This document shows positions 20,269-39,441 of a stretch of DNA of 64,000 nt, in pieces (position 1 is the first letter of the stretch; every line of letters starts with the position of its first letter). Source of the DNA: Tepidimicrobium xylanilyticum (lineage in GTDB: Bacteria; Bacillota; Clostridia; Tissierellales; Tepidimicrobiaceae); assembly GCF_900106765.1 (NCBI RefSeq), contig NZ_FNNG01000004.1, forward strand, positions 124,001 through 188,000. Reading direction: 5' to 3'. A model generated the notes under the pieces. It had not been told where the DNA came from. It was given only the letters and a program-made list of their open reading frames with translations, and made no database searches. The translations under genes and the position numbers were made by a program.

Positions 20269-21000
20269 TCATTTTTCCTTATCCATTATACCATATTTAA
20301 TTTTTACTCTATCTATCTTTTCTATCATAGGCTGTGACAATACAAATAGAAATACTACTGTTGCTATGGAATGAGCTAAGTCAAACCAAAAGCCTGATAT
20401 ATAAGTAGCTACTAACGCCCTCAGCGAAAATTTAGGTGTAAAAATCAAAAGACTTCCTATATTAATAATGCCTCCATATATGAAAAATGTAGATAAACCA
20501 CCAAAAATACATAAGGATAATCTATCCCTTTTTAATAAGCCTTTTTGGAATAATATGCCTGCTAAAAAACCAATAATTCCAAAGCAAAACATCTGCCATG
20601 GAGTCCATGGACCTTGCCCAAAGAAAAAATTTGATACAAATCCTGTTATGGCCCCTACTAGAAAACCTGATTCTGCCCCCAAAGTAACTCCGGTTATTAT
20701 GACTATGGCCACAACAGGCTTAAATTGAGGCAGCATAAAAAAAGCTGCTCTTCCTGCTACAGCAATGGCTGACAGCACTGCAATAATTACTATCTCCCTA
20801 ACTTTGGGATTTCTATTCTCAAATATCATGAAGAAGGGAAGCATTGTATACAACACGATCACAAGGCTTATAAAATAGTACTTTCTGTCTTTTAAATAAA
20901 ATATGCCAAATAAAATAGTGGCAGGAATAACAAATATTATTAATAAAACTGATACAACATTTCTATGATTTAAATGCCTGCCCTTAATCCTTCTTTGCAT
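20269..21000 (-). CDS. ECF transporter substrate-binding (S) component, probably for a corrinoid
   Basis: A 243-residue membrane protein with about seven helices. The last six form the S-fold: VREIVIIAVLSAIAVAGRAA, then GVTLGAESGFLVGAITGFVS and FGQGPWTPWQMFCFGIIGFL. The N-terminal two helices are an extension. S components bind the vitamin and dock on the ATPase/EcfT module. The substrate is inferred from the B12 riboswitch that heads the operon, consistent with CbrT-like candidates from comparative genomics. Sequence alone does not prove it. It overlaps the ATPase gene by 31 bases. Confidence 0.8.
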   Translation of the reverse strand: MQRRIKGRHLNHRNVVSVLLIIFVIPATILFGIFYLKDRKYYFISLVIVLYTMLPFFMIFENRNPKVREIVIIAVLSAIAVAGRAAFFMLPQFKPVVAIVIITGVTLGAESGFLVGAITGFVSNFFFGQGPWTPWQMFCFGIIGFLAGILFQKGLLKRDRLSLCIFGGLSTFFIYGGIINIGSLLIFTPKFSLRALVATYISGFWFDLAHSIATVVFLFVLSQPMIEKIDRVKIKYGIMDKEK

Positions 21001-22607
21001 AAAGCAATCACATCCTCTATTGTTACTGCATCCTTACACAGGTGCCTCACCATGCGGTTTGCTGCAGTTGTATAAAAGCTATTTCCTGAAAAAAATTCCC
21101 TCGTGGTATTGGAGGTAATAATATTCCCATCAAAGAATAGGGCACAATAATCTGAATATTTTGCACAGAATTCAATATCATGGGATACCATGACTATGGT
21201 TACACCTTTATTAGTTAGTTCTTTAAGTATCTTTGCAAGCTTGTCCTTGAAAAAATTATCCAAACCTTTAGTAGGTTCATCAAGAAGCAGTATTTTAGGT
21301 TCTAGTAACAAAACCTTGGCTAAGGCTACTCTCTGCTGCTCTCCTCCGCTTAGATCATATGGATGCATTGAAAGCAAATCTTCTATTTCCGTTATTTCTA
21401 TAATTTTATCAAGCCTATTTCCTTTTTCTTCTTGAGTTAATTTCATATCCGATAACATTTCATATAAATCTGATTCTACGGTCTTTTCTACAAATAAATT
21501 TTGTGGATTTTGAGGAAGTGTTACAGTATTCTTTTCACTGATTGTGATTTTTCCTCTATAGGGCTTGTTTATCCCATTCATTAAAGATAAGGCAGTAGTT
21601 TTTCCTGTTCCATTACCTCCTACAATAGAATAAAACTCCCCTTCCCTAATATCTAAAGATAATCCCTTAATAACATCAGGTGAATTCCTTTCATATCTAA
21701 ACCATACATCTTTTAATTCTATTACCTTCTTATTAGGTCTTGGCTGGGGTTCTGGGTAAGTCATTATTACTTTTTTCCCAATAGCAATCTCATCTATCCA
21801 TTTTCTTCCTTCATTGATGGTAATAGGGTAGGTACTGCTGTTTGTCACACTGGCATGGACTTGCATTGCTGTTGTCATGGCTAAAAACATAGGGTGGTCC
21901 ATTTCATATAGTCTCTTGCCTACATATGAAGGAGAACCTTCTACGATTATTTTACCCTCATCCAATACCACCAGCCTATCTGAAATAGGTATAACCTCTT
22001 CGAGCCTATGTTCTGTCATTATAATGGTGATTCCCAGATCCCTGTTTATCTTTTTAAGCATATTCAGAAAATCAGAGGCTGCAATAGGGTCTAGCTGTGA
22101 AGTTGGTTCATCTAGTATCAGTACTCTAGGGTCTAGGGGCATGATGCTTGCTAAGTTTAATATTTGCTTTTGGCCTCCTGAAAGTTCTGTAACATTCTTA
22201 TAAAACCAATTTTGTATACCAAAGAAACTAGCCATCTCAGCTACACGAAGGCGTATAGTATTACTATCATATCCTAGGCTTTCAAGCCCAAAAGCCAGCT
22301 CATGCCAAACCTTATCTGTAACTATTTGATTATCTGGGCTTTGAAACACATAACCTATTTGAAAAGCCTGTTCCCGTTCATCTACCTCTTCTAGGGGCTG
22401 CCCAAAAAAATATATTGCCCCCTCCCTTTTCCCATAAGGAGTAAGTATAGATTTTAATTGCTTTAATAATGTACTCTTTCCAGAACCGGTTTTTCCACAT
22501 AGGGTTATGAATTCCCCACTTTCTATGCTAATACTAATATTTAAAAGAGCCTTTTTATCCGTTTGAGGATAAGAAAAGCTCAAATTTTCGATTCTATACG
22601 CTTCCAT
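20970..22607 (-). CDS. ECF transporter ATPase with two fused ABC domains (AA')
   Basis: About 545 residues with two complete ABC cassettes. The first has Walker A CGKTGSGKST, signature TELSGGQKQ and Walker B VLILDEPTSQLD. The second has VGGNGTGKTTALS, DLSGGEQQRVALAK and ILLLDEPTKGLD. It powers the ECF complex at the inner face of the membrane. The ATG at 22607 is chosen from GGAGG seven bases upstream; the frame extends to 22649. It overlaps the end of the EcfT gene. Confidence 0.92.
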   Translation of the reverse strand: MEAYRIENLSFSYPQTDKKALLNISISIESGEFITLCGKTGSGKSTLLKQLKSILTPYGKREGAIYFFGQPLEEVDEREQAFQIGYVFQSPDNQIVTDKVWHELAFGLESLGYDSNTIRLRVAEMASFFGIQNWFYKNVTELSGGQKQILNLASIMPLDPRVLILDEPTSQLDPIAASDFLNMLKKINRDLGITIIMTEHRLEEVIPISDRLVVLDEGKIIVEGSPSYVGKRLYEMDHPMFLAMTTAMQVHASVTNSSTYPITINEGRKWIDEIAIGKKVIMTYPEPQPRPNKKVIELKDVWFRYERNSPDVIKGLSLDIREGEFYSIVGGNGTGKTTALSLMNGINKPYRGKITISEKNTVTLPQNPQNLFVEKTVESDLYEMLSDMKLTQEEKGNRLDKIIEITEIEDLLSMHPYDLSGGEQQRVALAKVLLLEPKILLLDEPTKGLDNFFKDKLAKILKELTNKGVTIVMVSHDIEFCAKYSDYCALFFDGNIITSNTTREFFSGNSFYTTAANRMVRHLCKDAVTIEDVIALCKEGLRAGI

Positions 22608-23470
22608 TTCATTTCCTCCACTATATTGATGATAACTGGTAACATACATAATATAAGATAGGATATATATAGAAAAATACTAAAAAGTGAGATATCTACA
22701 AACTTAATTGATGGGAAGAATCTGATAGTATTCTGCCCCATTAATGCACCTGCTAATATAATGGCAGTTAAGCATATCAAAATAACAAGAACTATCTTGT
22801 CCCTATTATCAAAACGAAATATAGAGAAGCTAGTTCTGCCAAGTAAGCCATAGCCTCTGGACTTCATGGAGTTAGCTGTTTCAATGGCATTTTCCAAGGC
22901 CCATGTGGTCATGATGGATAGAATTTTCATGCCATTTTTTGCCCTTTTGATAATATTTCCTTGTGAGAAATCCCTTCCAATACATTTTTGAGCATAGGAT
23001 ATTTCCTTTATCTGTGCTATGTATCTTGGAACAAAGCGAAGTACCATTGATATTATTAGGGATAAGGTTGGTATGATTCTGCCAAAAATATATATAAATT
23101 TATCCGATGTCATGACTGCATTGTAACAAGAAAACCATAATAATACCGTTACGAACATTAGAGCTGTTGCCACACCATAGATAATAGATTCCAAGGTTAT
23201 TGGATTGCCATTTTTTAGATAAAACAATATGGTAACTCCTTCATGGTTGAAGGCTGGATTTAACAGGGTCATGAATATTAGCATAGGCAGCATATATAAT
23301 ATGTTGAACTTAAGCCCTTTTTTGCCTTTTAACATTACTGAATATATAAAGGCCCCCGCAAAAGCTATTACTTGGAATATGGGATGCATAAAAAACATAC
23401 TGAAGCATATTACTGCACAAAAGTACATGAAATTTATTATAGGGTGAAAATTAGAAAAACTGTCCATCAT
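22580..23470 (-). CDS. ecfT: ECF transporter transmembrane component EcfT
   Basis: A 296-residue membrane protein with about six helices. The coupling-helix motifs are visible as SMVLRFVPRYIAQIKEISYA and then ALENAIETANSMKSRGYG, which contains the Ala-Arg-Gly-like element for ATPase contact. It links the ATPase to the S component. Its start overlaps the DUF4430 gene upstream by four bases, so capture proteins and transporter are translated together. Confidence 0.9.
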   Translation of the reverse strand: MMDSFSNFHPIINFMYFCAVICFSMFFMHPIFQVIAFAGAFIYSVMLKGKKGLKFNILYMLPMLIFMTLLNPAFNHEGVTILFYLKNGNPITLESIIYGVATALMFVTVLLWFSCYNAVMTSDKFIYIFGRIIPTLSLIISMVLRFVPRYIAQIKEISYAQKCIGRDFSQGNIIKRAKNGMKILSIMTTWALENAIETANSMKSRGYGLLGRTSFSIFRFDNRDKIVLVILICLTAIILAGALMGQNTIRFFPSIKFVDISLFSIFLYISYLILCMLPVIINIVEEMKWKRIESKI

Positions 23471-24150
23471 TCTTCGCCTCCAAAAGTGGCATCTTGTCCC
23501 TCTATATCCCTTCCTAGGTCACAAGTATATATCCACTCTACCACATCTCCATCCTTTAACTGGTATCTGCTTGCACCATAGTTTGGAAACCAGCCATTTA
23601 CTCTATACATCCAACCGCTTAGCTCGCCACAGTCAAATTCATAAATATTGTTAATTCCTTCCACATAATGGCTATTATACATTGGGACCATGACAAATTC
23701 CATATGGATTTTATTCTTTAGCATCTCCCTTAATAAAACATCGAATACAGATTCTCCTTCATAGCAGACCACTTCCTGAGCAGGATATATAACCCCGTCT
23801 TCTGGCAATACTTCTAGCTTATCCTTATTAAATTTATCTAAATTGTCAAATATAGTTTTGCAAGTTACAGATAAAGTTATAGTTAGCTCTTTTTCTTTAT
23901 TTATAACCACATCCTGCCATTCTACTGGTTTAGGTTTGCCCTCAGGAACTGGATCCGTAAGGTATTTGTCTTTTTCTCCCTTATTTTTATTATCTTCAGC
24001 TATTATTTTTACTTGACTTTCGCCTTCTATATCTGGATTTTTTAATTGTTCTGAACCTAAAGGGACTATTTCATTTTTTCCACTTAGAAAAAATGAAATA
24101 ACCAATATAACTGCTATTACAAAGGCTATTTTTATCTTTATATTTTTCAT
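23467..24150 (-). CDS. Membrane-anchored DUF4430 protein (transcobalamin-like C-terminal domain)
   Basis: About 227 residues. A signal anchor (IKIAFVIAVILVISFFLSG) is followed by a charged linker and a DUF4430 domain in the last 130 residues. Core motifs are YVEGINNIYEF, SGWMYRVNGWFPNYGASRY and DGDVVEWIYTCDLGRD. PF14478 corresponds to the beta domain of transcobalamin and intrinsic factor, which covers bound B12. The adjacent upstream gene supplies the matching alpha domain. Start 24150 (MKNIKIKIAF) is preferred; the frame extends to 24177. Confidence 0.85.
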   Translation of the reverse strand: MKNIKIKIAFVIAVILVISFFLSGKNEIVPLGSEQLKNPDIEGESQVKIIAEDNKNKGEKDKYLTDPVPEGKPKPVEWQDVVINKEKELTITLSVTCKTIFDNLDKFNKDKLEVLPEDGVIYPAQEVVCYEGESVFDVLLREMLKNKIHMEFVMVPMYNSHYVEGINNIYEFDCGELSGWMYRVNGWFPNYGASRYQLKDGDVVEWIYTCDLGRDIEGQDATFGGEE

Positions 24151-24166
24151 GATATAGCCACCACTT

Positions 24167-25183
24167 TCATTTAACATCAGTCATATCATATAAGCTGTTT
24201 TTCCCGTCTTTATATCTTTTATATGCTATTAGCGCATACAATCCTTGATCTGTTGCCATAAGGTCTAATGTACCTGCCTGCCCTCCACCATTTTCTTTAG
24301 TCCCTTCTTTTATATGCATGAAACCTCCACCATCTAAATAAAAGGTTAGCAAGTTGTCCATTAAGGAATTGCCTCCTTTTACAAATCTTTCGTCATCTGG
24401 GTCTATGGCTAACTCTGTAAGGGCTACTATTACTTGAACTACAGATTCGGAATTGGCAGAGCCCCAGCTTGAATAGCCTCCATCTTCTAACTGAATGCTG
24501 GATAGATAGTCCAAAGCCTTTCCTATGGCCTCTTCTACTTCTGGTTTTTCTTTATATTTAGACAAGGCTTGTAATACCATGGCTGTTACATCTGGATCTG
24601 ATGGTTCCTCTCCTAATAAGGAAAATCCTCCATCCCTTAATTGATGCTCTAATATATATTCTATATACATATCTCTAGTACCTTGAATATTTGCATTTGG
24701 ATTATAGGGTATTTCATAATTCTTGGAATCTAAGGCTATAAGGGCAAAGGCAGGGCCATTTATGCCCTGATATATAACCTTTTCATAGTCTCCTAATGCC
24801 TCTAGCAAATTATAGCCTTCCACATCTGTAGGATCTTTACCTATAGCTGTTAAGGCTAATATCACTCTAGAATACTCAGTGTATTTTCTATCATGCAATA
24901 TACCATCCTTTTCCTTTAAGGCCTGTACCAGGTTTTGGTAGTATTTTTCAAAATAGGCCTTATCTATATCTAAATCTGAACGGGCTAAAGAAAATACTGT
25001 CCATTCCCCGCCTAAAGAAGAAACTGTAGGATCTGTTACCATTTTAACCATAAGGTTGGCTGTTTCTTCTATTTGCTTATCTAAATCAACACCTGCTTTA
25101 TTGCTACTACTGCAGGCAAATAAATGTAGAGATAAAATTATTATCAATATTAGGAGAAATAGTTTTTTATTTTTGAAGTTCAT
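24167..25183 (-). CDS. Lipoprotein with intrinsic-factor-like alpha/alpha barrel
   Basis: A 338-residue lipoprotein; the lipobox is LHLFAC (Cys 24), so it is anchored outside the membrane. The rest is an alpha6/alpha6 toroid of the prenyltransferase/squalene-cyclase superfamily, to which the N-terminal domain of intrinsic factor and transcobalamin belongs. Repeat signatures are INGPAFALIALDSKNYEIP, DGGFSLLGEEPSDPDVTAMV, DGGYSSWGSANSESVVQVIV and LMATDQGLYALIAYK. It lacks the catalytic DxDD and zinc residues of cyclases and prenyltransferases as far as I can see. Paired with the DUF4430 gene downstream, it would rebuild a two-domain corrinoid binder. Confidence 0.82.
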   Translation of the reverse strand: MNFKNKKLFLLILIIILSLHLFACSSSNKAGVDLDKQIEETANLMVKMVTDPTVSSLGGEWTVFSLARSDLDIDKAYFEKYYQNLVQALKEKDGILHDRKYTEYSRVILALTAIGKDPTDVEGYNLLEALGDYEKVIYQGINGPAFALIALDSKNYEIPYNPNANIQGTRDMYIEYILEHQLRDGGFSLLGEEPSDPDVTAMVLQALSKYKEKPEVEEAIGKALDYLSSIQLEDGGYSSWGSANSESVVQVIVALTELAIDPDDERFVKGGNSLMDNLLTFYLDGGGFMHIKEGTKENGGGQAGTLDLMATDQGLYALIAYKRYKDGKNSLYDMTDVK

Positions 25184-25211
25184 ATTTTCCTTCCTTTCGT
25201 TTTTTATGTAT

Positions 25212-25260
25212 TTAACTAAAAAGGCTTAAATACTGTAGTAATATAAGCCCTTTTAGTTAA
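25212..25260 (-). terminator. Internal hairpin between the 1155-residue protein and the ECF-proximal genes
   Basis: TTAACTAAAAAGGCTTA (25212-25228) pairs with TAAGCCCTTTTAGTTAA (25244-25260), interrupted by one mismatch. The minus strand has TTTTT within the 3' arm. It is probably a leaky terminator or processing site that lowers expression of the downstream lipoprotein and ECF genes relative to the upstream genes. Confidence 0.6.
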
Positions 25261-25277
25261 TACATTTCATAAATCAT

Positions 25278-28200
25278 TTATTTTTTATAGATAATCCCAT
25301 ACACTCCGTCTGATACTTGTTCTACATAAACATGTCCGTTAATTACAGACCATTTATGTGGACTTATGTCTTCAAATTTACTTTTCATATAATTGTATTT
25401 AACTACTCTTATATATTCCCTTGGTAAATCCTTGTCCAATTTCATTTCAAAGGAAAGGCCAGCTTTGGTAGAATTAGTTTCAATTTGAAATACCTTTCCT
25501 GCCCCCTTAGTTTTAGCCCAAATTGATTGTATATCGTTATTTTTTTCACTTGGTGCAGGTTTAATATTTAGATACAATCCATCTGCACTGTCCATGAATG
25601 GAAAGATTTTAATTTTTATAAAATCTGTACTATATTTTAAATAGTCGAAGCCTAATTCATTAAGATTAGTTAATACCTCTGCAGGAATGTTAATTTGGTT
25701 TTTTATATTATCATTTTGATCCATAGGAATTAATTTTATTTCTACATGATCATTCCCTTGAATAATAGATAAGTCCCTCTTGGCACTTCCGCTTTGGGCT
25801 GTAATCCGTCCTGCTTCATTAAAAGCAATGGTTCTAACTTTCTGGCTAGTTAATGAAGGCCTTTCTTCTTCTAACCTCTTCTTTTTAATTTCTTGGCTTA
25901 TTTCATACCAATCTTTACTGTCTTTATCTCCACTACTGCTCCTTGGTAAAGATCTATACCAATTCTCAGGTTCATAATAAATATGCCTGTCTCGTCTATC
26001 GTACCTATCACGTTCCCTTGGCACATCTACATAAACTTTATAGGTTTTAGAACCATAGCCTTTTACTGATACTGTATAGTAAACAGTTTTATTAAAGTTT
26101 TGAGGCATGCCAATGTCTGGATAAATTTCATCCCCTTCATATTTTATCTCTGGAACTAAATATTCTAAGTCCATATAAAATGGCAAATATACATTTATAG
26201 TTTCTTTACTATGATTAATAGCTCCAGGTATTCCTAGTAGGCTGAAACTGGTAATCCTTGGCTCTTGCTTTTCTTCCAGCTTTGGGGAATTGTCTGATTT
26301 TTCCCATTTGGCGAATAGTTCCATATCGTCTTTTATTATTGTATTAAAATCGTATTCATATCTGTAGAGTACATCTTTGTACCATCCCACAAATTTATAG
26401 CCTTCCTTTGTTGGTTCCTTTGGTATTGGTACTGTTTCCCCTTCTTTAACTTTTATAGGGGGAATTACACTTCCACCCATGGTATTAAAGATTACGGTAT
26501 ACTCCAGCACCTCATTTGCTTCTGCTATTATTTCTATAATATACTCTACAGATTTATTATCTCTATATATAGTAAACTTTTCAGATTGTTCAGCCATAAT
26601 ACTGTTGGATATAATTCCTGCAGCCCATTTTTCTATTGGCCCATCGTATCCCCTTTCTTGTCTAAGAAAGGCCCCTTCCGTACCAGTTATTTTGAGAAAA
26701 TGCTGTCCATCTATGATGGATTCATCATAACCCTTTGGAAGTTTTAGTGTTATTTTTTGACCCTTCATAACCCCTGTTGCTATTGTTTTCCCATCTTTAA
26801 TCAATTCCACAGAAGTTATTTTCAGCGGTTCCTCTGTAGAAATATCTTTTTCCCATTTTGCATATAGGGTTATGTTTTCTGTAATTGGTCTATTAAAGTC
26901 GAACTCTTCCCTTAATTCTTCATCAATATACCACCCTGCAAACTTAAATCCTGCTTTTACTGGATCTTCCGGTTTTGCAATCCTTTGGCCCTTTTCTACC
27001 TCAATTGATGATATAGCACTGCCACCATTGGTGTTGAATTCAACCATAATTTTGTCTTTCTCTGATTCTTTCTTTACATTTAGTATGAATTTAATTCTTT
27101 CATCAAAACCTTCTATTATGCCCTCTGCTTCGTAGATCCCATGTTTATTGTAAATAAAACAATCACTTAGATATACATCATTACCTTCCCATTTCCCAAT
27201 ATTTACAATTCTCTCACTATTGTCGTCTAGTATTACTCTTGCAGTTTTTGGCAATCTATAGACCAAATAACCCCCAAAACTATCCACATATACTGTAACT
27301 TCTTGAACCTTATCCTCTTCCTTGATCCCTCTAATTTTTCTTATAGTAACCTTGAGTGATACGGTTTGATCTGTTCCTGAAACCGTACCTGTAAAAATAT
27401 TTTCCCCCAATACTGCATCTTCTATCGCTTTATCCCAGCTTACGATTTCATATCCTTCCTGTCCATCATCATATTTAACCTTTACTGTTTCAGGCAATTC
27501 ATATTTATCATATCCTTGGATATATTCCACATCATCAAAATCATATATTCTTTCAATTGCTCGTGGTTTCTCCTTAAAAACTGCCTTAACTCTAAGGTGG
27601 TAGTTGGCTTTGTGATCCATAGCGTCTACTACCATATTAGGAAGTTTTATTTTAATAATGGGCTTGTTTAAATTCACATAAGGATTCAGGGTATTTTCTC
27701 CAACAACACCAGGAGGCATAAATTCCCATCTGTCAAAAGCATAGTCTTCCTTAGGTACTGCCCTAAATTCTATATCATCACTTCTATACGCAAGGGGGAA
27801 GCCGTCTTCTGCTTTTATATTTCTATTTAAAACTTTAGTAACTACTTCACCTTGTTCCTGGCTTGTTTCAGTAGTATCTATTACGGTATAATTATAATAG
27901 ATCGCTTCAATGGTTAATTTATTATCTTTTGCTATATCAAAAATCTCTTTGGTTATTTCAAATTCAATATCCCTAGTGGTTATTTCTTCTCCAAATAATT
28001 CTTTAAATTTATTATCATCCATACCTGATATATTCCACTTGCTAAAAAAACTTTTATATCCGTCATATGCTGTAACACTAACTCTATCTCCGATTTTCAA
28101 CTCCTTATAGTTTTCTCCATCTGTAAACCCTGCTTTTACAGTTGGATCACAGGATACAGATGTGCCTGCTTCAGGCTTTACTGTTAATTTCAGCCTTGGT

Positions 28201-28766: not shown

Positions 28767-31700
28767 CTAATATACCACCTGATAATCCTCTGTTTCAATG
28801 AATTCTTCCAAATATCTCCAGAGTTTTGTGGCAGGTTTTGGCTCTAAAACCCTTATAATCAAAGTGTAGACCTTGGTTTTCTTTCCATCGGATAGAATAA
28901 ATTTGTTATCGTATCTTAAATCCAATACTTGTCCTGAACTTGGATATACATTACTTCCCTTAGATGTTTCAATAATAGGAGATACATTTCGTAAATCCAG
29001 TTCATAGGGAAGCTCTATATATATCCTTCCATTATTATCATCTATTTCCCCTTCTATACCTTTTATTTTAAAGGATTCTATTTTCATCTCGTCTTTGCCA
29101 TCTTTATTGCTATCATCTTCATTTTTGGGTTCTTCTTGACCTGAACTAATTATTTTTACTGTATACAGATTTACATTTCCATCATCATCTGTTAATATAT
29201 AGTCCTTATAATAATCTTTTAAAGAATTGCTTTCTTTATTTGGTTCTGGATCTATAGTCTTTCCAGTCCATTCAATGTCTGGAACTAAATCTTCAACATC
29301 AAATTTATCCAGCCCCTTTGGAAGTGTTAGTTTAATGGTATTGCCTATTATATCAGCTTCAACACCAGCTACTGAAAATTTTTCAATCCTGCTATTCCCC
29401 GCTGGAGATACATATTCTATATTTAAGTCGTATTCTATGGGACCATCTGGTGGCAATGGATATGGAATGATCTGCACCTTTTTTCTTTGGCTAAAGTCAG
29501 CTGGCTCTTTTAATCCAGGACTTATAGAAGTAGTGCTGTCCTTTGGTTCAAACTCCGCTTCATTTATGAAAACTTCCTCTAAATAGGTTCCAAAGGGAAA
29601 TTTAAAATCAATAGATTGCTTTCTTACATCTATATGGCCTTCTACACCTCTTAGTACAAATTTTGTAAATCTATAACTTGCTTCTTGTTTTATAATAACC
29701 ATTACCCTATATTCTCTTTGAGTCCCATCTTCTGCCGTTACTGTATATATAACTGCTCCTTTAGTAAAATCTTGCGGTTCAGTTTCATCAGGAGATATAC
29801 TTACCCCTTGGTGATTAAAGGATACTATAAGATTTTTTAATTCATATTCATCAGTGTCAATTGGAAGCTCTATATTAACAATTCCCTTTTGATTATCTAT
29901 ATAGACTTTGGCATCTGAAAAACCTATCACCTTGCCAGCCAATATGTCTTTTTTCCCGCTCTTTACCCCTTCTTTCCTTTCTATTTTGACCCAATATTTT
30001 TTTGTGGTTATACCATCTTCTGCTGTTACCACATATTCTACATCTTTTGAAAAATCCTGTTTCTCCTCCGCACTTGGGGATATGGTTGCACCTCTGGGGA
30101 TTTCTATTATAGGTATTATATTTTTTAATTCTTCATCTGATATTTCTCCTGGCAGCTCCACTGTAATAATGCCTAGTTCATGGTCTATGATGCCGTTTTT
30201 ACCCAACAGCTCAAATCTTATAATTTCTGTATCTTTGCTAAATTCCTTGCTAAAATCAAAGGGCACTCCGTCATAGTATAAGGAGTAGGGTTTTCCTCCA
30301 TTTTCTACGAAATTAATATACCACTGCAATGCATACATGCCTTGGTAGGTTGCCATGAAATTGTAAGTATTATTGGTATGTCCAAATCCGTCTATAGCAG
30401 GGGTTACAAATTTCTTTATCCAATTGACTATCATATTATCTTCTGGTCCTCTGGAAAATCTATAGTCGGAAAAAGGATCTATTCCCATGGAACAGAGGGC
30501 AATTATAACTTGAGATGTGGATTCACTATTTGCATCACCCCATGAAATCCCTAAAAAATCATCACTTAAAGGCTCTACCCCTTTGGCTGATTTAGAACCT
30601 GTAAACAATTCTACCCCTTCTTCTAATTTCTCCATTACTCTTTCCCCATAAATGGGATGATTTTGATATGGATATAAGGCCTGCATCAACATGGCCACCA
30701 TGTCAATCCCAAATCTATCAGAACCGTATTCATGATCTAATAGAAATTCAATATAATCTTCCCTTTTTAAAACCGAATCAGCAGGTATAGAATAATTCCC
30801 CATGTCCAGTGCTATAAGGGAAAAAGCCGCCCCATTTATGCCACCAAGATTTTCGTTATACAGCATCTCCATTATATTGTTAACCTCTTTTCCAAAAGGT
30901 CTGTTTAAGTCTGTCCTAAAGGGCTTATCATTAATTTTAAATGGTTCCAGATTGGAAGCATCTATTCCCAAAGCAGTTAAAGTCATAGCAAATCTAGCAA
31001 AATCCGTAATCTTAGAGCTGGATAGTTCTCCTATTTCCTTATACATATCAAATCTTTCAGGCAAATCTTCATATGTTTTTCTTATTCCATCAGGGAATCC
31101 GTTATTTTTTCCCTCATAAAAGCCTATATTCATCCATTCCCAGTCTTCCGAAGTAGCTTCTTTTTTATATTTAGCATATATGTTGTCCCTCAGCTTCTTG
31201 AGCATATTCATATATTCTTCACTGGGGCCTACTTTTGCTTTGTCACTATATCTTACATAAACTTTATAGGTTTTCTGGTCTCCGTTTTCAGCGGTTACTG
31301 TATAATCGACGGGCCCTTTGGAAAAGTCCACTTCTTCAAAGCTGGCAGGTTCTACTTTTGCATTTGGAGAAACTTCAATAAAGGGTTTTACCTTTTTTAA
31401 ATCAATAGATGAAGGAACCTCTACAACAATATCATTTCCTTCTATTTTGCCTTCTATAGTCCCCACCCTAAAGGACAGGATTTCATTTTCCGAAGAAGCT
31501 TCCCCAATAATTACCGCTACCTCATATTCCTTAGTAGCTCCTGACTCAGATATTACTTTATATGTCACAGGTTTTGTAAGGTCCTGTTCCTCTCCTGAAT
31601 CTGGTATTATTTTAGCTCTATAATCAACCTTGATATAGGGCCTTAGTGCGGAAATATCTGAACCATAAGGTACTTCTATAAGAATCTTTCCCTTTTCATG

Positions 31701-33089
31701 GTCTATGTCAGCTACATAATCACCTATACTAAAATAAATAATTTCATTGTGACTAGACTTTCTAAAACTGATATTGAGATTGTAAATTTTTTCTAGCTCC
31801 TTATTTACTACTTTTATTTTTTTTATTTCCTCTGCATTTATAGTTTGGTCAACTGTTATTGGGATTTGACTGCCTTTTTCATCTATATAATAAGCAGATG
31901 TGCCTGTATGGAATAAATCTAAAGATAAATTTTTTAGATCAACTTCAAAGGGTATTTCTAAATCTATGGTATCTCCATTTATCTTTCCATATATTCTTTC
32001 CCCATATTTACTCGTATAGATTAGCGAATTTACTAGTGGGTCAGGTTCCTCGGGCAGTATCTTTACTATCCATTCTCTTTCCAAGTGGCTATAATCTTTT
32101 ATACCATAATAATCGAGGTATTTTTCATGTATGGCATCAATGGGCTTTACTGAATAGATTGCTTCTCCATCTGTTTTTAAATTCCCTGATTTATGCCTTG
32201 CTACCACCCAGTCAGGGGTTGCTATCTTAATCTGTGATTCATCTAATTCCATATCCTTTGGAATGTATATGTTAACTAAAGAATTTTCCCTATCAATAAT
32301 CCCTGCATATTCACCTATTCTAAAATCCAATATCTCTGCCTCATTTATCCTATGGGATTCTACGTAATCTACAATATCATAGAGCAGCGGGATAGATGCT
32401 TCTATTTTGGCCCTGGATAGATATATATCAAACCCTGATTCTGGTAATCTCCAATTATCTAAAAGCATCTGCTTCCATTCTCTAATTGCATTTAAGGCAT
32501 AGGCCCTCAAAGTAGGATGATAGTCTCCTGCCTTTTTAGGCACTCCTTGATTTTCTATTGCATCTGCTAATCCTTGAAGTCTATTTAATGCTTTTATAAA
32601 GTCATCTTTTAAATCATCTACTTCTTTAGGGTCTACCCTTTGACTTCTATCGTAATTTTCCATAAACCATGCAGGCATGAAGTCTTCCCTAGTATCATTA
32701 TCATAGGTAAATTTATATAGATGCTTTACTGGTAATTCATAGTTATGTTTTTTTCCATCTGGTACAAGTTCTCCCAATGGGGGGTTACTAAATCTGTCCT
32801 CCATTATATTCCAGGCCCTTGTTTCTGCTTTTGTAATAGTAGCCTCTTTAACATTTAGAGGAACAAAGGTAGTATATTTGATATATTTTCCCACTAAAGT
32901 ATCATTTAAAATATTCTTGGGCATAATCGTGCCTGGATAAAAATGTTCCTTAGAGAATATCCTCTGAAAAACATAAGCCTTCCACTCAAATTTCCTATCA
33001 TGAGCAAAAGCAAAACTTCCAGTTGAAAGTAAAATCGTAATTGCTAAAAGAAAGCTTAATATTCTTCTTAGTTTTAGGCTTTTTTTCAT
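28767..33089 (-). CDS. Secreted 1440-residue protein: beta-sandwich chain with embedded intrinsic-factor-like barrel
   Basis: A signal peptide (ILSFLLAITILLSTGSFAFA) is followed by a helical region (about 40-245). Four cadherin-like/DUF5018-type beta domains come next (about 249-615), then an alpha/alpha barrel (about 624-945), then five more beta domains (about 954-1416). Each beta domain repeats a pattern such as DFSKGPVDYTVTAENGDQKT. The barrel is paralogous to the lipoprotein at 24167-25183: INGAAFSLIALDMGNYSIP, SWGDANSESTSQVIIAL and FMATYQGMYALQW match it closely. No sortase signal is present. It is probably an exported corrinoid-binding scaffold. Confidence 0.78.
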   Translation of the reverse strand: MKKSLKLRRILSFLLAITILLSTGSFAFAHDRKFEWKAYVFQRIFSKEHFYPGTIMPKNILNDTLVGKYIKYTTFVPLNVKEATITKAETRAWNIMEDRFSNPPLGELVPDGKKHNYELPVKHLYKFTYDNDTREDFMPAWFMENYDRSQRVDPKEVDDLKDDFIKALNRLQGLADAIENQGVPKKAGDYHPTLRAYALNAIREWKQMLLDNWRLPESGFDIYLSRAKIEASIPLLYDIVDYVESHRINEAEILDFRIGEYAGIIDRENSLVNIYIPKDMELDESQIKIATPDWVVARHKSGNLKTDGEAIYSVKPIDAIHEKYLDYYGIKDYSHLEREWIVKILPEEPDPLVNSLIYTSKYGERIYGKINGDTIDLEIPFEVDLKNLSLDLFHTGTSAYYIDEKGSQIPITVDQTINAEEIKKIKVVNKELEKIYNLNISFRKSSHNEIIYFSIGDYVADIDHEKGKILIEVPYGSDISALRPYIKVDYRAKIIPDSGEEQDLTKPVTYKVISESGATKEYEVAVIIGEASSENEILSFRVGTIEGKIEGNDIVVEVPSSIDLKKVKPFIEVSPNAKVEPASFEEVDFSKGPVDYTVTAENGDQKTYKVYVRYSDKAKVGPSEEYMNMLKKLRDNIYAKYKKEATSEDWEWMNIGFYEGKNNGFPDGIRKTYEDLPERFDMYKEIGELSSSKITDFARFAMTLTALGIDASNLEPFKINDKPFRTDLNRPFGKEVNNIMEMLYNENLGGINGAAFSLIALDMGNYSIPADSVLKREDYIEFLLDHEYGSDRFGIDMVAMLMQALYPYQNHPIYGERVMEKLEEGVELFTGSKSAKGVEPLSDDFLGISWGDANSESTSQVIIALCSMGIDPFSDYRFSRGPEDNMIVNWIKKFVTPAIDGFGHTNNTYNFMATYQGMYALQWYINFVENGGKPYSLYYDGVPFDFSKEFSKDTEIIRFELLGKNGIIDHELGIITVELPGEISDEELKNIIPIIEIPRGATISPSAEEKQDFSKDVEYVVTAEDGITTKKYWVKIERKEGVKSGKKDILAGKVIGFSDAKVYIDNQKGIVNIELPIDTDEYELKNLIVSFNHQGVSISPDETEPQDFTKGAVIYTVTAEDGTQREYRVMVIIKQEASYRFTKFVLRGVEGHIDVRKQSIDFKFPFGTYLEEVFINEAEFEPKDSTTSISPGLKEPADFSQRKKVQIIPYPLPPDGPIEYDLNIEYVSPAGNSRIEKFSVAGVEADIIGNTIKLTLPKGLDKFDVEDLVPDIEWTGKTIDPEPNKESNSLKDYYKDYILTDDDGNVNLYTVKIISSGQEEPKNEDDSNKDGKDEMKIESFKIKGIEGEIDDNNGRIYIELPYELDLRNVSPIIETSKGSNVYPSSGQVLDLRYDNKFILSDGKKTKVYTLIIRVLEPKPATKLWRYLEEFIETEDYQVVY

Positions 33090-33122
33090 ATGAATCTCCC
33101 TTATCTTCCTATATTTTATCTG

Positions 33123-33158: not shown

Positions 33159-33170
33159 TTTAATTTTTTA

Positions 33171-34094
33171 CTACCATTCAGGTCCACCTAGGTCTATACC
33201 CCAGTCAAAGGTATACCCCCATATCATAGTTTCATCACTTGCTGTTATTATATATTGGCTTGCTCCCATATTGGGGACCTCATCGTTCATCTTATAAATC
33301 CAGCCTGTTCTGTCATTCCACCACTCTTCAGGTGGAAAATCCTCTGGGTGTGTCTCCTGGAATAGTAAAGCTGGTAGAGTTTCATGACCATTTCTTCCAA
33401 TTTCACTTACATATCCACTGTCTGCACCTATTGCATTAAGGTTCAGATATCTAGCACCTATTGCTCTTTTAAATACATCCATTGCTGACTCCCCTATATC
33501 TGCCAATACTATTACACTCAACTGTCCATTTTCCAAACCATCTACTGCATTCTGTACCCTATCTTTTGCTAAAGGATAGTCTTCTGCTAGTGGAACTACA
33601 TAACCTTCTTTATTTTTGCTTTTATACCTTCCATCTATCCAATCATTTGCATTTTTTAAGTCAATGGCAACTATTATCGGTGTGTTTGTCCCCTTAATAC
33701 CTGCATTTATTTGATAGGTTCTAAAAATTGTACTACCTGATTTCAGAACAAAATCCACATATCCATCACTAAAGTTTACACTCATGTTTGAAGTATATGG
33801 GACTCCATTTACTTCTAGACTATATTCTAAATCGTCAAACTCAGCTTCTATTTGTACATCACTTAAATCTACACTATTACTAGGAAACTCAATATACCCA
33901 GTATATCTGGTCACACCATTTACCTCTACAAATTTCATTTCCACTGAATATTCATTTGAACCATCTATTGCTTTTACCTCCAAAACTCCGTCATCCGGCA
34001 GTATTTCCATCTCTGCAAATGCAGACACACTCAATCCCAATACTAATACCAATGCTAACAACAAGCTAAATATTCTTTTCTTGCTTTTAAACAT
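33171..34094 (-). CDS. Secreted DUF4430-domain protein
   Basis: A 307-residue exported protein. The signal peptide is IFSLLLALVLVLGLSVSAFA (cleavage after Ala 27). A cadherin-like beta region (about 35-130) precedes a C-terminal DUF4430 domain ending RTGWIYKMNDEVPNMGASQY and WGYTFDWGIDLGGPEW. The end motif is shared with the other two DUF4430 proteins of the operon. It lacks a membrane anchor and Cys pair, so it could be released or bound to the next gene product, whose barrel would be its alpha-domain partner. Confidence 0.82.
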   Translation of the reverse strand: MFKSKKRIFSLLLALVLVLGLSVSAFAEMEILPDDGVLEVKAIDGSNEYSVEMKFVEVNGVTRYTGYIEFPSNSVDLSDVQIEAEFDDLEYSLEVNGVPYTSNMSVNFSDGYVDFVLKSGSTIFRTYQINAGIKGTNTPIIVAIDLKNANDWIDGRYKSKNKEGYVVPLAEDYPLAKDRVQNAVDGLENGQLSVIVLADIGESAMDVFKRAIGARYLNLNAIGADSGYVSEIGRNGHETLPALLFQETHPEDFPPEEWWNDRTGWIYKMNDEVPNMGASQYIITASDETMIWGYTFDWGIDLGGPEW

Positions 34095-34213: not shown

Positions 34214-35533
34214 CTATTCTGTCCTTATGGCTGTCTGTGGACTTACTCTCATGGCGTTAATTGCAGGACCTAATGCAGATATTACAGCTACTAAACCTGC
34301 AAAAAGGACTCCACCTACGGCTAACCATGGTGGAATTATAGACCTTACTTCCATTTCTTTTAAAAGTACAGGCAACAGCCTTTGCAGACCAAAACTTAGT
34401 GCCAGGCCTATAATTCCCCCTATTATTCCAATTATCACTGCTTCTACTAAAAACATCTTTACTATATCCGTTAATTCACTGCCCAAAACTTTCAATATGC
34501 CTATTTCCTTCGTTCTTTCATTAATTGACATCATCATAGTATTGGCAGTACCTATTCCTGCTACCAAAAGGGATACTCCTCCTATGGCTGCAAGCACTCC
34601 CTGAATTTGCTTGGATTGTCTTCTAACTGACTCTAACATATCGTTTAAGGAGTAGGTTTCAAATCCTGCTGCTTTAATTGCAGCTATTACATCTTGTGCA
34701 GAGTCTGTGTCCTCAGCTTTTACCCATACCATCTGATAGGTTTGAAGTTTTGATAATTCATTGTCTTCCTCATCTTCTTTTGGTACTGAAGGCATATATT
34801 CTTCATTATCTTTCATTATTTCCTCCAAAATCTCATATTCCATGAATCCAGAAGTATCATAATTGCGGTTCTGATTGCTGCATATTCCTGTAACTTGAAC
34901 TCTGTAATTTTTCCCCATAGGAAGTGCCCTGCCATCTTCCCCTGCTTGGTACTCACCCATTAAGGATTCATAATTAAAGGACATCCTAATATTAGATTTC
35001 ATTGGATCTAGGGGCTTTTTAATGGAGGCAATTTCTATCTTTTCCCAGGTTTCCGGGTCCACAAAGGAGTCTTGGACATCGTCGGTTAGCATTATTTCAG
35101 GTCTTATTCTAGTACCTTTTAAAGGCAGTTCCCCTTCTAATGGAATCAATTGAAAACTAGGAGCAGTTTTCATATCTATACCGTAAAGTTTAATAAGGGT
35201 TATGTATTTCCCATTTTTTAAATATGGAAATACCTGCAAAACTGGTGTTACCGCCTCTACTCCATCTAATTTTTTAAAAGACATTACTGCTTTCTCGTTT
35301 AATAATGGCACTTTTCCCTTTTTGTCCCTTGGTGGCATTACATCTATTTTAGTTAAACTTCCCATTTCTTCTATGGTTTCCCTATAGGTCTGATCATAAC
35401 CTAAACCTATTGAAACAAGTACCACTATAGATGCTACTCCTACCGTCATGGCTAAAGCCGTTAAAATTGTCCTTACCTTTCTTCTCCACAGATTTATAAA
35501 ACCCATGCGGAAAAAGTCCCTAGTCCTCATCAT
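34214..35533 (-). CDS. MacB/FtsX-type ABC transporter permease
   Basis: A 439-residue protein. The first membrane helix (about 16-45, INLWRRKVRTILTALAMTVG) is followed by an extracytoplasmic MacB periplasmic-core-like domain. Three C-terminal helices follow, with AGIGTANTMMMSINERTKEI and GILKVLGSELTDIVKMFLVE as the FtsX signature. MacB-type permeases do not move substrates across the membrane; they transmit ATP-driven motion to outside partners or eject lipoproteins. The start overlaps the stop of the CARDB-like gene (ATGA), and the matching ATPase lies upstream. Confidence 0.88.
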   Translation of the reverse strand: MMRTRDFFRMGFINLWRRKVRTILTALAMTVGVASIVVLVSIGLGYDQTYRETIEEMGSLTKIDVMPPRDKKGKVPLLNEKAVMSFKKLDGVEAVTPVLQVFPYLKNGKYITLIKLYGIDMKTAPSFQLIPLEGELPLKGTRIRPEIMLTDDVQDSFVDPETWEKIEIASIKKPLDPMKSNIRMSFNYESLMGEYQAGEDGRALPMGKNYRVQVTGICSNQNRNYDTSGFMEYEILEEIMKDNEEYMPSVPKEDEEDNELSKLQTYQMVWVKAEDTDSAQDVIAAIKAAGFETYSLNDMLESVRRQSKQIQGVLAAIGGVSLLVAGIGTANTMMMSINERTKEIGILKVLGSELTDIVKMFLVEAVIIGIIGGIIGLALSFGLQRLLPVLLKEMEVRSIIPPWLAVGGVLFAGLVAVISALGPAINAMRVSPQTAIRTE

Positions 35534-37359
35534 AGTTTAAACCTACCCTTTTTTATCATATAATAGGCTCCTCCAATTAAAGCTAATGCCCCTAGAGTTC
35601 CTCCCACAATAAGGTCTTTATTTTTCTTGCTTTTGGTTTGGATTTGTTCTTCAACAATTTGACTGCCTAAATAATCCTCCTCTTTTATTACCAATTGAAA
35701 GGGTAACTCTTCCATGTATTCTGCTCCATCTATATCTTCATATTTTATAATAAAACTTCCTTGTATTTCGCCCGGGCTGGTCCCTATTATTTGAAAGTCT
35801 ACATCAGTTTTAGCTGCTGGCAGCAAATCTCCCCCATAGTATTCCTCTACCATTGCTAGACCTTCCCCTTCTACATCCACCTGTAAATTAAATATTTTTC
35901 CCTTGCCTTTATTCATTATGGGTATGGTTACTGCAATTGGTTCTCCCTTAGCGTGTTCTGCCCCATAGATTGCAGGCTCACCTAAGGATACCTTTACTTC
36001 TTGTTTTATTTCCAATACTATTGCTTGAGAATAGGTTCCTTTAGTTACTTTAGGAGTTTCATACTCCATATTAACTACTATTATGGAAGTTGGGTTGACA
36101 GCTGTTGGGAGTGCTTTTAAATAAAAGGTTCTAGTTGCGGTTTTTTCTGGCCCCAAATAGTCAATATAGGCACTATCACTTTTGCCTATATCTGGCATTA
36201 ATTCTTCTTCAGCCAATGTTAAAGCAATACTTGCATTTTTTATACTCTTATTCTTTGAAGTATTTTGCAGCTTCAGCGTTAGTTCGAAGGGTTTGCCAGC
36301 ATATATGGTTTCTGGATTTGTGGTATAGGATACAACCATAAGTTTTGGTACAGAATCTGGAAGCTCTACTGGTTCTTTAGGTTCTTCTTTACCCTTAATT
36401 ACATTTATATAGGCAGAAAACAAACTTTCTTCCATCTTCCCATTTTCCATATATGTAGCTCTAAAGTTTATGGGTTTAGCTCCTGAGGTAACCTCTGGGG
36501 ATATCGTAAATTCATATTCTAGCGTAATTACATCCCTGGGATTCATTCGAGGTATCTTTCTTCCATAATTGACTACTTCTACTATGAAAGGCCATTCGTC
36601 TAATGAAGTGGATATTACGGGATGAATATTTATATCAGTTAATGTACCTCCATTGTTTATTATTGGTATTTTGAACTTTATCCTTTCTCCTGCATTCCCT
36701 TGAGGTGCCGGAATCAAAGAACCATCCTTTTCTACTGTAGCAACACTTAGTGCCCCCATTTCATTTGTAACCTTAGATTCGCTACCATTTTCTGTTACAT
36801 TTACATAGGCAAACAATTCAAATTCTACATCTTCCTTTATTTGAGTCCCATTTATATCATCTTTTCTCCAAATTGTAGCATTTATCAAAAATGGAACTGG
36901 ATAAACCCCTTTTTGGGCCCTTTGAGATATAGTAAAATCATAAAATACGTCTGCTCGGCTGTTGTAAGTCATATCTTTTATTCTTTTAATATAGCTGGCA
37001 TTATCAATTTCAAAAGGCCAATTTTCTATTTCAGATCTTTCAGTAGGAATGATTGGCTCTATGGTAATATTTCTAAGTACGTAATTTAAGCTGGGTACAT
37101 ATTCCCTATTAACTGCTAAGGGCAATTCTATTCGCACCTTATCTCCTGGTTTACCAACTACTGCCTTAGTACCTGTATCTGCTATTACAATGGCTTTTTT
37201 ATCGCTTACTTCGATTTTATCCTGTCCCGGTTTGTTTTGCTTAGGAGTAGTGGTAGTATCATCTGCTGCATAATTAGCAGATGGCTTATATGCAAATATA
37301 AATGAAATTAATAATATAAGCACTAATATGCCTATAAAACCTTTTCTTTTTAGATTCAA
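35530..37359 (-). CDS. Exported CARDB/NEW3-like protein with C-terminal membrane anchor
   Basis: A 609-residue protein. A signal peptide (FIGILVLILLISFIFAYKPS) is followed by repeated beta domains rich in proline and aromatic residues, such as VNREYVPSLNYVLRNITIEP and PFELTLKLQNTSKNKSIKNA, as in CARDB/NPCBM-associated NEW3 domains. A single C-terminal helix (LIVGGTLGALALIGGAYYMI) and a short basic tail anchor it. The TTG start at 37359 has AAGGAGG seven bases upstream and overlaps the ATPase stop. It is probably the extracytoplasmic partner of the MacB-like transporter. Confidence 0.78.
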   Translation of the reverse strand: MNLKRKGFIGILVLILLISFIFAYKPSANYAADDTTTTPKQNKPGQDKIEVSDKKAIVIADTGTKAVVGKPGDKVRIELPLAVNREYVPSLNYVLRNITIEPIIPTERSEIENWPFEIDNASYIKRIKDMTYNSRADVFYDFTISQRAQKGVYPVPFLINATIWRKDDINGTQIKEDVEFELFAYVNVTENGSESKVTNEMGALSVATVEKDGSLIPAPQGNAGERIKFKIPIINNGGTLTDINIHPVISTSLDEWPFIVEVVNYGRKIPRMNPRDVITLEYEFTISPEVTSGAKPINFRATYMENGKMEESLFSAYINVIKGKEEPKEPVELPDSVPKLMVVSYTTNPETIYAGKPFELTLKLQNTSKNKSIKNASIALTLAEEELMPDIGKSDSAYIDYLGPEKTATRTFYLKALPTAVNPTSIIVVNMEYETPKVTKGTYSQAIVLEIKQEVKVSLGEPAIYGAEHAKGEPIAVTIPIMNKGKGKIFNLQVDVEGEGLAMVEEYYGGDLLPAAKTDVDFQIIGTSPGEIQGSFIIKYEDIDGAEYMEELPFQLVIKEEDYLGSQIVEEQIQTKSKKNKDLIVGGTLGALALIGGAYYMIKKGRFKL

Positions 37360-38057
37360 TGATTTTCCTCCTTATTCAGTTTTGAATTTATGATTTTTCC
37401 ATCCTCCAAATATATGGTCTTTTCTATATAATCCCTTGTGTCCTCATCATGAGATACTAATACAAAGGTTGTCCCCTTTTCCTTGAAAAGTTTTTCTAAT
37501 AATTCCATTACTTGTTCACTTGTCTTTGTATCTAAATTTCCTGTAGGTTCATCTGCAAAAACTATTGGTGGGTTTGTAACCAAGGCTCTAGCTATACCTA
37601 CACGTTGCTGCTGCCCTCCAGACATTTCATTTGGTTTATGATTTGCATGGGAGTATATCCCTACTTGTTCCATAATTTCTTTGGCCATTTTTTCCCTTTC
37701 TTTAGGAGCTACCCCCCTTAATATCAAGGGAAGGGCTACATTTTCTAATGCTGTATATTGAGGTAATAAATTGTAAGATTGAAATATAAAGCCTATATTT
37801 TCCCTCCTGAATCTGATTCGTTCTCTTTCATTCATTTTTTCAATATGACCACCAGCAATTATTATTTCACCAGATGTAACCTTTTCCAATCCAGCCATTA
37901 AATTTAAAAGTGTTGACTTGCCCGAGCCAGAACGTCCAGCTATCCTAAGCATTTCTCCCTTTTTTATGGACAGATCTATTCCATTTACAGCCTTAATTAT
38001 GTTTTTTCCTAAGATAAACTCTTTCCGGACTTTTTTTAATTTTATGTATCCTTCCAA
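37356..38057 (-). CDS. MacB/LolD-type ABC transporter ATPase
   Basis: A 233-residue ABC ATPase. Walker A AGRSGSGKSTLLNLMAGLEK, Q-loop FIFQSYNLLPQYTALENVAL, signature EMSGGQQQRVGIARAL and Walker B VFADEPTGNLD are complete. The FQSYNLLP and PTGNLD forms are characteristic of the LolD/MacB subfamily. The start is TTG at 38057. It overlaps the next gene by four bases, so ATPase, CARDB-like protein and permease form one tight trio. Confidence 0.92.
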   Translation of the reverse strand: MEGYIKLKKVRKEFILGKNIIKAVNGIDLSIKKGEMLRIAGRSGSGKSTLLNLMAGLEKVTSGEIIIAGGHIEKMNERERIRFRRENIGFIFQSYNLLPQYTALENVALPLILRGVAPKEREKMAKEIMEQVGIYSHANHKPNEMSGGQQQRVGIARALVTNPPIVFADEPTGNLDTKTSEQVMELLEKLFKEKGTTFVLVSHDEDTRDYIEKTIYLEDGKIINSKLNKEENH

Positions 38058-38077
38058 TCAAATCCCATCCTTTACTA

Positions 38078-39124
38078 TTAATCACCTATCCATTCTTGTC
38101 CTAAATCTTTGCCTAGATTACAGGTATAGTTCCATTCGATTACATCTCCACCTTTAAGCACATATGCTCCTGCTCCATAGTTTGGATACCAGCCATTTAC
38201 ACAGTACATCCAGCCACTCCAACGACCACCATCAAACTCATATAAATTATTAATTCCTTCTACATAGGCGGATCCCCCTTCGCCTCTATAACTTACGTGA
38301 AACTTATACTGTTCTTTAGCCATGAGTAATACATCTAATACCGTATCCCCTTCTTTAATTCTAAATTCTGTATTAGCTAATATTATCCCACTTTTAGGTA
38401 CTATACCCTGCCACTCTGGATTATCAGCCATACCTTTAGCTACAGCTGTATCACAGCGAATTTGCATGGTTACTATATTTTCCTTTTTACGCTTTTCTTT
38501 TTGTTCTCTTTCTTTTTTCTCCTTCTCTTTTTTAGCTTTTTTTGTGGCTTTTTTCTGTTCTTCTGTTGCTTTTTCTTCTACATTTTTGTTCTCTTCTTGG
38601 TCCTTATTATTTTCTTCAGGACCCTTCTTTGTATTTTGACTAAGCTTCCTTATTTCCTCCTGAAACTTATTTATTGTTTCTTCTTCTTTTTTATTTTTTT
38701 CTTCATTTATTTTATCTTCCTTTATTTTATCTTCCTTGGCCTTTTCAAGGACTAGGTCTTGGATAGATGCTTCATTCTTTTTTCTCTTTTCCTTAGATTC
38801 CAATAACTTTTCCCAAGGTGATCTCCTTTCTTTGGAATCTGTGGCATTCGAATTGATATTTTCCCTTTCTTCCTCATGGATTTTGGATGAATCATGGAAT
38901 TCTACTTTTTCATTTCTTAACTTGGCTAACATGGACTCAGAACTCTGGCTTTCACTAATTTCCTCTGCACTGGTATCCATCCAATATTCAATCTCTAGCT
39001 TATTAGTTTGTCCAAAGACCACATCTTCAGAAAAATAATCTTTTATTCCCCTAAAAATCTGTATGTTCCCCAAAATAATTATTATAGATAACAATAGTAA
39101 CAGGAAAACGTTTCTCTTCTTCAT
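38078..39124 (-). CDS. First gene of the B12 operon: DUF4430 protein with long charged stalk
   Basis: A 348-residue protein. The N-terminal signal anchor (NVFLLLLLSIIIILGNIQIF) is followed by a low-complexity Lys/Glu-rich coiled-coil stalk (about 70-220). The DUF4430 domain (about 225-348) reads DTVLDVLLMAKEQYKFHVSY, YVEGINNLYEFDGGRWSGWM and VNGWYPNYGAGAYVLKGGDV, ending CNLGKDLGQEW. The stalk would hold the domain away from the membrane through the wall. A strong GGAGGGGAG site precedes the ATG. It is directly behind the cobalamin riboswitch and its terminator, which ties the DUF4430 family here to B12. Confidence 0.85.
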   Translation of the reverse strand: MKKRNVFLLLLLSIIIILGNIQIFRGIKDYFSEDVVFGQTNKLEIEYWMDTSAEEISESQSSESMLAKLRNEKVEFHDSSKIHEEERENINSNATDSKERRSPWEKLLESKEKRKKNEASIQDLVLEKAKEDKIKEDKINEEKNKKEEETINKFQEEIRKLSQNTKKGPEENNKDQEENKNVEEKATEEQKKATKKAKKEKEKKEREQKEKRKKENIVTMQIRCDTAVAKGMADNPEWQGIVPKSGIILANTEFRIKEGDTVLDVLLMAKEQYKFHVSYRGEGGSAYVEGINNLYEFDGGRWSGWMYCVNGWYPNYGAGAYVLKGGDVIEWNYTCNLGKDLGQEWIGD

Positions 39125-39171
39125 TTAACTCCCCTCCGTTCCTAATCCATACTCGGCATTGTTGCTGTATT

Positions 39172-39206
39172 AAAAAATGCCTTAACCACCATAGGTTAAG
39201 GCATTT
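39172..39206 (-). terminator. Riboswitch-controlled intrinsic terminator
   Basis: A perfect 13-bp stem (39175-39187 with 39194-39206; AATGCCTTAACC core) with a six-base loop, ending in TTTTTT on the minus strand. It sits 75 bases after the cobalamin riboswitch and about 50 bases before the first gene, where a B12-induced terminator is expected. Confidence 0.9.
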
Positions 39207-39280
39207 ATAGGCCCGTTCATATAAAAACAACACAAAAATACACATTACCTTAAACCCAGGAAGGTATATGTTACATTGCA

Positions 39281-39441
39281 GTTTAGGCAGGTCTCCTGAC
39301 TTATGGTTCATAGTTTACCTTCGCCTTCCCAAGATAAGTCTCAGTGGCAGTTTGAAGGGTCACTCACCAATTACAGTGGCCGGTCCGTTCAGGATTTTCA
39401 CCTGATTCCCTTTTAATCTTTACTTAAAAAGAACCTAAACC
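39281..39441 (-). promoter_or_regulatory. Cobalamin (B12) riboswitch
   Basis: On the minus strand the conserved core is evident: GGTGAAAATCCTGAACGG, then GCCACTGTAA, and the B12 box GTCAGGAGACCTGCC (39300-39286). The closing P1 helix is GTTTAGG (39440-39434) with CCTAAAC (39287-39281). Order and spacing match the cobalamin class. With the terminator at 39172-39206 it should switch the whole downstream operon off when corrinoid is plentiful. A TATAAT at 39470-39465 may be the promoter, but no good -35 is seen. Confidence 0.95.

Follow-up and report, generated by a model that had tools for sequence, protein, structure and literature searches.

The concept of extracellular vitamin B12 capture by transcobalamin-like proteins in bacteria was set out by Burroughs et al. 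in 2007, who defined a transcobalamin-like clade of SLBB domains and noted its fusion to toroids in both orders (PMC1796856). They found such domains and toroids of low-GC Gram-positive bacteria in operons with CbiO/CbiQ, predicted that these proteins scavenge B12, and predicted transfer of the transcobalamin gene from Gram-positive bacteria to animals (PMC1796856). In a later report on the energy-coupling factor (ECF) transporter ECF-CbrT of Lactobacillus delbrueckii, transport of cobalamin and cobinamide by CbrT is demonstrated (Santos et al. 2018, PMC5997447; structure 6fnp). Here we analyzed a twelve-gene operon of Tepidimicrobium xylanilyticum, contained in a window of 64,000 nucleotides (the whole stretch analyzed, contig NZ_FNNG01000004.1, positions 124,001 to 188,000) that is part of a 3.0-Mb genome. 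We propose that this operon probably encodes a corrinoid import system which is repressed by B12 and which carries a split, intrinsic-factor-like surface trap.

The operon shares with those of 2007 the secreted DUF4430 beta-grasp proteins, the toroids, a second extracellular paralogue, a CbiO-like ATPase and a CbiQ-like protein (PMC1796856). It differs in that toroid and beta half are each encoded by a gene of their own, that the S component could be assigned to the CbrT type and that a riboswitch heads the operon, whereas riboswitches are unmentioned in the 2007 paper; hosts in that paper usually lack B12 synthesis, and the present host departs from this since most cbi genes are present (PMC1796856). 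The likeness to ECF-CbrT is a CbrT-homologous S component, homologues of EcfT and EcfA, and the same kind of importer (PMC5997447). The part of that report available to us places cbrT in an nrdJ-cbrS-cbrT-pduO cluster without ECF module genes, whereas T, AA' and S here share one operon, and it makes no mention of extracellular toroid/DUF4430 proteins such as accompany the ECF genes here (PMC5997447). Animal intrinsic factor, transcobalamin and haptocorrin also combine an alpha/alpha toroid with a DUF4430 beta domain, and relatives of our proteins fuse both in the same order. However, in this operon the two domains would be separate, cell-anchored chains with predicted binding, no receptor-mediated endocytosis and no significant sequence similarity to the animal carriers. 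BtuFCD, which also pairs a surface binding protein with corrinoid import driven by an ABC ATPase and has similar loci in the same genome, differs in that its binding-protein and permease folds are unrelated.

An earlier reading of the window from sequence alone (the sequence-only reading) held that no system of this form had been described experimentally. Our literature search, whose coverage left out most subscription papers and preprints, found no experimental study of these proteins or of a bacterial intrinsic-factor system, and within the same coverage almost nothing on DUF4430. The experimental half of that statement therefore stands, but the idea itself had been predicted in 2007 (PMC1796856). 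The concept is not new; the new elements are the link to a riboswitch, the combination of a split pair with its own ECF transporter of the CbrT type, and a host with most of the B12 synthesis pathway.

At the head of the operon we found a cobalamin riboswitch (39269-39453, minus strand), which scored 134.2 bits with the Rfam covariance model RF00174 against a gathering score of 31.5. The aptamer is full length (model positions 1-189) and is the sole cobalamin riboswitch in the window. An intrinsic terminator with a 13-bp helix and a U run lies 3' of the aptamer at about 39172-39206 (minus strand, z = -3.6), as part of a predicted expression platform. Twelve genes, all on the minus strand, then span 39124 to 20269 with overlaps or gaps between neighbors of -70 to +119 nt. 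Both the complete riboswitch with its terminator and the unbroken run of twelve genes had been claimed by the sequence-only reading and were confirmed. A strong terminator (19-bp helix and U run, 20183-20223, minus strand, z = -7.8) is located just past the S component gene, and thus the downstream limit drawn earlier was correct. These elements indicate that the operon is very likely B12-regulated.

The last three genes encode the ECF T/AA'/S set that had been noticed before. The EcfT transmembrane coupling protein (22580-23470) is not recognized by Pfam on its own; we identified it through its family, whose profile matches solved EcfT with an E-value of 2e-15 and in which 13 of 18 members match CbiQ. 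AA' and S were recognized by Pfam/NCBIfam. The EcfA-A' double ATPase (20970-22649, with a better ribosome-binding site at the alternative start 22607) scores 363 bits with TIGR04520, which is above the cut-off, and the S component (20269-21000) belongs to PF12822. When the S component was compared as a single sequence with the PDB, CbrT of L. delbrueckii (6fnp_A) was the sole significant match (E 5.5e-12; next match 0.43). A profile of the S component gave E 1.1e-16 for CbrT and 0.005 or worse for other S components. The operon very likely encodes a corrinoid importer.

The genome as a whole contains six cobalamin riboswitches and four DUF4430 matches, all four of which are found behind two of the riboswitches. 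The second DUF4430 locus (L011, G000:C3:166000-168000) has its own riboswitch, a cobalamin adenosyltransferase (PF01923), a short anchored DUF4430 protein and a second CbrT-like S component. It is a minimal unit, with no toroid and no ECF module of its own nearby, and is similar to the L. delbrueckii nrdJ-cbrS-cbrT-pduO cluster. A large cobalamin cluster (L012, L013 and L062, G000:C2:248500-300000) has four riboswitches, most cbi/cob genes, a separate CbiMQO-like cobalt importer and several BtuFCD-like loci. CbiJ and CbiD were confirmed by Pfam; cbiL, H, F, G, T, E, C, A, P, B and cobD, U, S, C of the anaerobic cobalamin pathway were assigned by inspection only. Five proteins of the genome score above the cut-off for a B12-binding domain. 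Salvage is thus the probable role of the importer, in a host possibly able to make the cofactor as well, in contrast to the auxotrophs emphasized in 2007 (PMC1796856).

Cobalamin riboswitches control some cobalt importers too. Related examples have been reported (PMC2667541). The ligand of the transporter might be cobalt, a different tetrapyrrole or something lipid-like, with the system merely co-regulated with B12 metabolism, and the resemblance of the toroid to terpene cyclases would fit such a reading. We regard this as improbable, since the S component is CbrT-like and unlike any other solved S component, cobalt has its own importer in the cobalamin cluster, and the second S/DUF4430 locus includes the adenosyltransferase.

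The sequence-only reading had proposed a search of other genomes for DUF4430 next to cobalamin riboswitches. We examined 61 related genomes, of which 24 contain DUF4430, and found that 50 of 57 DUF4430 matches lie at most 20 kb downstream of an RF00174 match on the same strand, against about 1.1 expected from random placement. Within 5 kb there were 37, with about 0.3 expected. Most of the seven exceptional matches are on short contigs or close to contig ends. In ten or so relatives we also observed short DUF4430 open reading frames (ORFs; 135-159 aa) located 300-400 nt behind a riboswitch.

The gene pair at the center of the proposed trap is a toroid lipoprotein (24167-25183, lipobox LFAC), the putative alpha half, followed by D3 (23467-24177), an anchored DUF4430 protein (PF14478, 64 bits) that would be the beta half and whose family neighbors the toroid in relatives. 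Conserved residues of D3 include Y171 and W189. The toroid family was searched for in 84,980 species genomes, which gave at least 553 confirmed candidates; 80 loci were kept and the module was counted in 79 of them. The kept loci come from Tissierella, Paenibacillus, Clostridium, Terrisporobacter, Flavonifractor plautii, Cellulosilyticum, Sporobacter and many uncultured Clostridia. A DUF4430 gene is directly 3' of the toroid gene in 66 of the 73 loci where the contig permits the comparison, and behind the two we found EcfT (54/60), EcfAA' (56/60) and S (56/60). The core that we find repeatedly in Clostridia, Tissierellia and Paenibacillus thus consists of toroid, DUF4430, EcfT, EcfAA' and S. 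In 40 of 60 loci, AA' and S form a single polypeptide; this EcfA-A'-S fusion (about 810-1060 residues in L046, L048 and about 40 loci) is an unusual ECF architecture.

The model of the toroid lipoprotein (pLDDT 93.6) is an alpha/alpha toroid. In sequence searches this family matched terpene cyclases only, together with S-layer proteins found through the S-layer homology (SLH) tails of relatives, and gave no match to the animal carriers. Pfam reports a squalene-cyclase-like region, and the best Pfam and PDB sequence matches are squalene-hopene and drimenyl diphosphate cyclases. These matches are what would be expected of a secreted terpene-cyclase-like enzyme with no part in B12 capture. However, at position 199, where class II cyclases carry the last Asp of the DxDD motif, almost every family member has I, V or M, and we rejected a cyclase assignment on this basis. 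There are also no adjacent terpene genes, relatives fuse the toroid to DUF4430, and the toroid is located outside the cell because it is a lipoprotein in the window and often bears SLH domains in relatives. We therefore consider a secreted cyclase very improbable. Because the toroid sequence matches terpene cyclases, we did not count the toroid alone as evidence for an intrinsic-factor-like protein.

Stronger evidence for the trap comes from relatives in which toroid and DUF4430 are joined. We found 27 proteins that carry both domains in one chain. Several of these (for example L113, L130 and L073) have the order of intrinsic factor, with the toroid first and a linker of about 30 residues; in the window, the two domains are on separate genes. 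In L113, the fusion gene comes first behind a riboswitch (L113:7204-7455). We modeled its fused region (pLDDT 89.8) and found that its fifteen best PDB matches all belong to transcobalamin, haptocorrin and intrinsic factor, with E-values from 7e-10 to 7e-7, while the next class of matches begins at 6.5e-5. The transcobalamin beta domain, solved in isolation with cyanocobalamin, aligned with the model at a TMt of 0.70. A fold match of barrel and DUF4430 to transcobalamin, the lack of which would have counted against the earlier proposal, was thus obtained in the form of a relative's fusion that retrieves the animal carriers first.

DUF4430 could instead bind the corrinoid alone, with the toroids acting as scaffold or anchor or binding wall or host material. 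Smaller systems, namely L011 and the short DUF4430 ORFs, pair DUF4430 with a CbrT-like S component and no toroid, the beta domain of human transcobalamin can bind corrinoid by itself and has been crystallized in isolation with cyanocobalamin (5np4), and nothing in the toroid alone points to transcobalamin in particular. We nevertheless consider this unlikely, since the toroid gene so regularly stands immediately before DUF4430 and the fusions join the two, and since polar toroid positions (W61, N142, D198, Q250 and Q313) are strongly conserved across the family. It is fairly likely that toroid and DUF4430 jointly hold the corrinoid.

Several results weigh against a split-trap importer. On its model, the toroid taken alone appears to be an alpha/alpha toroid and no more: in the PDB, terpene cyclases are mixed with transcobalamin at E-values of about 1e-4 to 1e-3 (transcobalamin 3e-4) and match equally well. 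The earlier assignment of the barrel to the intrinsic-factor fold therefore holds as far as an alpha/alpha toroid with transcobalamin among its best matches, but not as a match specific to intrinsic factor. D3 as a single sequence found no match in the PDB, a profile from untrimmed D3 relatives was discarded since it gave low-complexity matches only, and the trimmed DUF4430 profile matched the transcobalamin-2 beta domain with a best E-value of 0.47, which is not significant. The ligand-free L113 model places its domains unlike holo-transcobalamin (TM 0.24-0.39, rmsd about 22 Å, linker pLDDT below 50), so a closed clamp is something we infer. Of 79 toroid loci, 36 have a cobalamin riboswitch upstream, and among the 49 whose available upstream sequence measures 8.5 kb or more the number is just 26. 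Both are undercounts, given that our riboswitch profile missed one in F. plautii (L097) that cmscan detected, but some loci show none in the sequence covered, and one toroid-host genome has no cobalamin riboswitch. The 57 DUF4430 matches are mutually related and so are not independent events, although the effect is very large despite this kinship. Finally, the host may not need an importer, since it has BtuFCD-like loci and most of the genes for making cobalamin.

Despite these points, a split-trap corrinoid importer, as proposed by the sequence-only reading, agrees with the riboswitch association, the conserved core, the fusions, the L113 model and the CbrT-like S component; binding, hand-over and regulation are what we infer from them. 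Support for the function is much stronger than before. As read from the genes, the alpha (toroid) and beta (DUF4430) domains are separate chains accompanied by a complete, dedicated ECF transporter. We propose that when cellular cobalamin is low the terminator would not form and the operon would be read. The toroid lipoprotein and anchored D3 would then close on a corrinoid at the outer face of the membrane, as the two domains of transcobalamin do. The captured corrinoid would be delivered to the S component, and EcfT-AA' would drive its import. The odds that hand-over to the S component is direct appear to us to be even.

To our knowledge, ECF transporters have been described as operating without a soluble or anchored binding protein. 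There is about an even chance that the operon departs from this and encodes an ECF transporter served by binding proteins outside the cell, in which a two-chain, intrinsic-factor-like surface clamp hands corrinoids to a dedicated CbrT-type S component. If so, ECF plus surface clamp would represent a new way of arranging transport, and bacteria might have in it an equivalent of the B12 carriers of animals. B12 acquisition by most Gram-positive bacteria is poorly known, and a widespread system with the proposed trap would account for a large group of orphan surface proteins, namely DUF4430 and toroid-SLH proteins. It would also bear on competition for B12 in the gut, as a relative is present in Flavonifractor plautii ATCC 29863. 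The 2007 proposal that animal transcobalamin came from Gram-positive bacteria becomes more directly testable.

The operon encodes four further large or DUF4430-containing surface proteins, which may be additional capture or wall-spanning parts. D1 (38078-39124) is anchored in the membrane and has a long spacer rich in Lys and Glu, with the DUF4430 domain at residues about 218-341 (PF14478, 67 bits; family profile, 181 bits). D2 (33171-34094) is secreted, with a divergent C-terminal DUF4430 that falls below the Pfam cut-off (22.2 versus 23.8 bits) and is supported by a profile built from this system's own DUF4430 domains (32 bits, E 9e-11). Of the three DUF4430 proteins reported earlier, D1 and D3 are thus clear and D2 is weak. 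The 1440-residue protein (28767-33089) combines cadherin-like/DUF5018 repeats with a toroid at residues about 687-937 (30279-31031). That two proteins share the toroid domain, as had been noted, was corroborated with a single profile of the lipoprotein family, which scored 372 bits on the lipoprotein and 239 bits within this protein. The 1155-residue protein (25278-28745) has Listeria-Bacteroides (Flg_new) repeats (PF09479, E 6e-38) and Big_4.

The MacB-like trio noted before is also present. It consists of an ABC ATPase (37356-38057; PF00005, E 1e-37), a CARDB-like surface protein with a C-terminal membrane anchor (35530-37359; weak PF07705, E 0.002) and a MacB/FtsX-type permease (34214-35533; PF02687 and PF12704). 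We rejected the trio as a part of the core, since a full-length relative of its middle protein (74% identity) occurs in just one other of the 61 genomes. The trio is a rare accessory, lineage-specific and perhaps exporting or mechanically working surface proteins.

That other genome, G045, belongs to another family and carries nearly the same operon (L055 and L056, G045:C4) in a larger form, with an additional S gene, further toroid proteins and some other genes. Identity to the genes of our operon reaches 74-86% in places. Its trio genes are in the same order at 74-80% identity (ATPase 79%, permease 80%), which suggests that the whole cluster was horizontally transferred.

Elsewhere in the window, a TPP riboswitch (67 bits) heads an ABC operon at 54330-57354 (minus strand) that by inspection resembles a thiamine-precursor uptake system, with permease, binding lipoprotein and ATPase. 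At 12716-15121 (minus strand), a radical SAM protein lies beside a MEMO/AMMECR1-type fusion, and by inspection the two form an AmmeMemoRadiSam-like pair.

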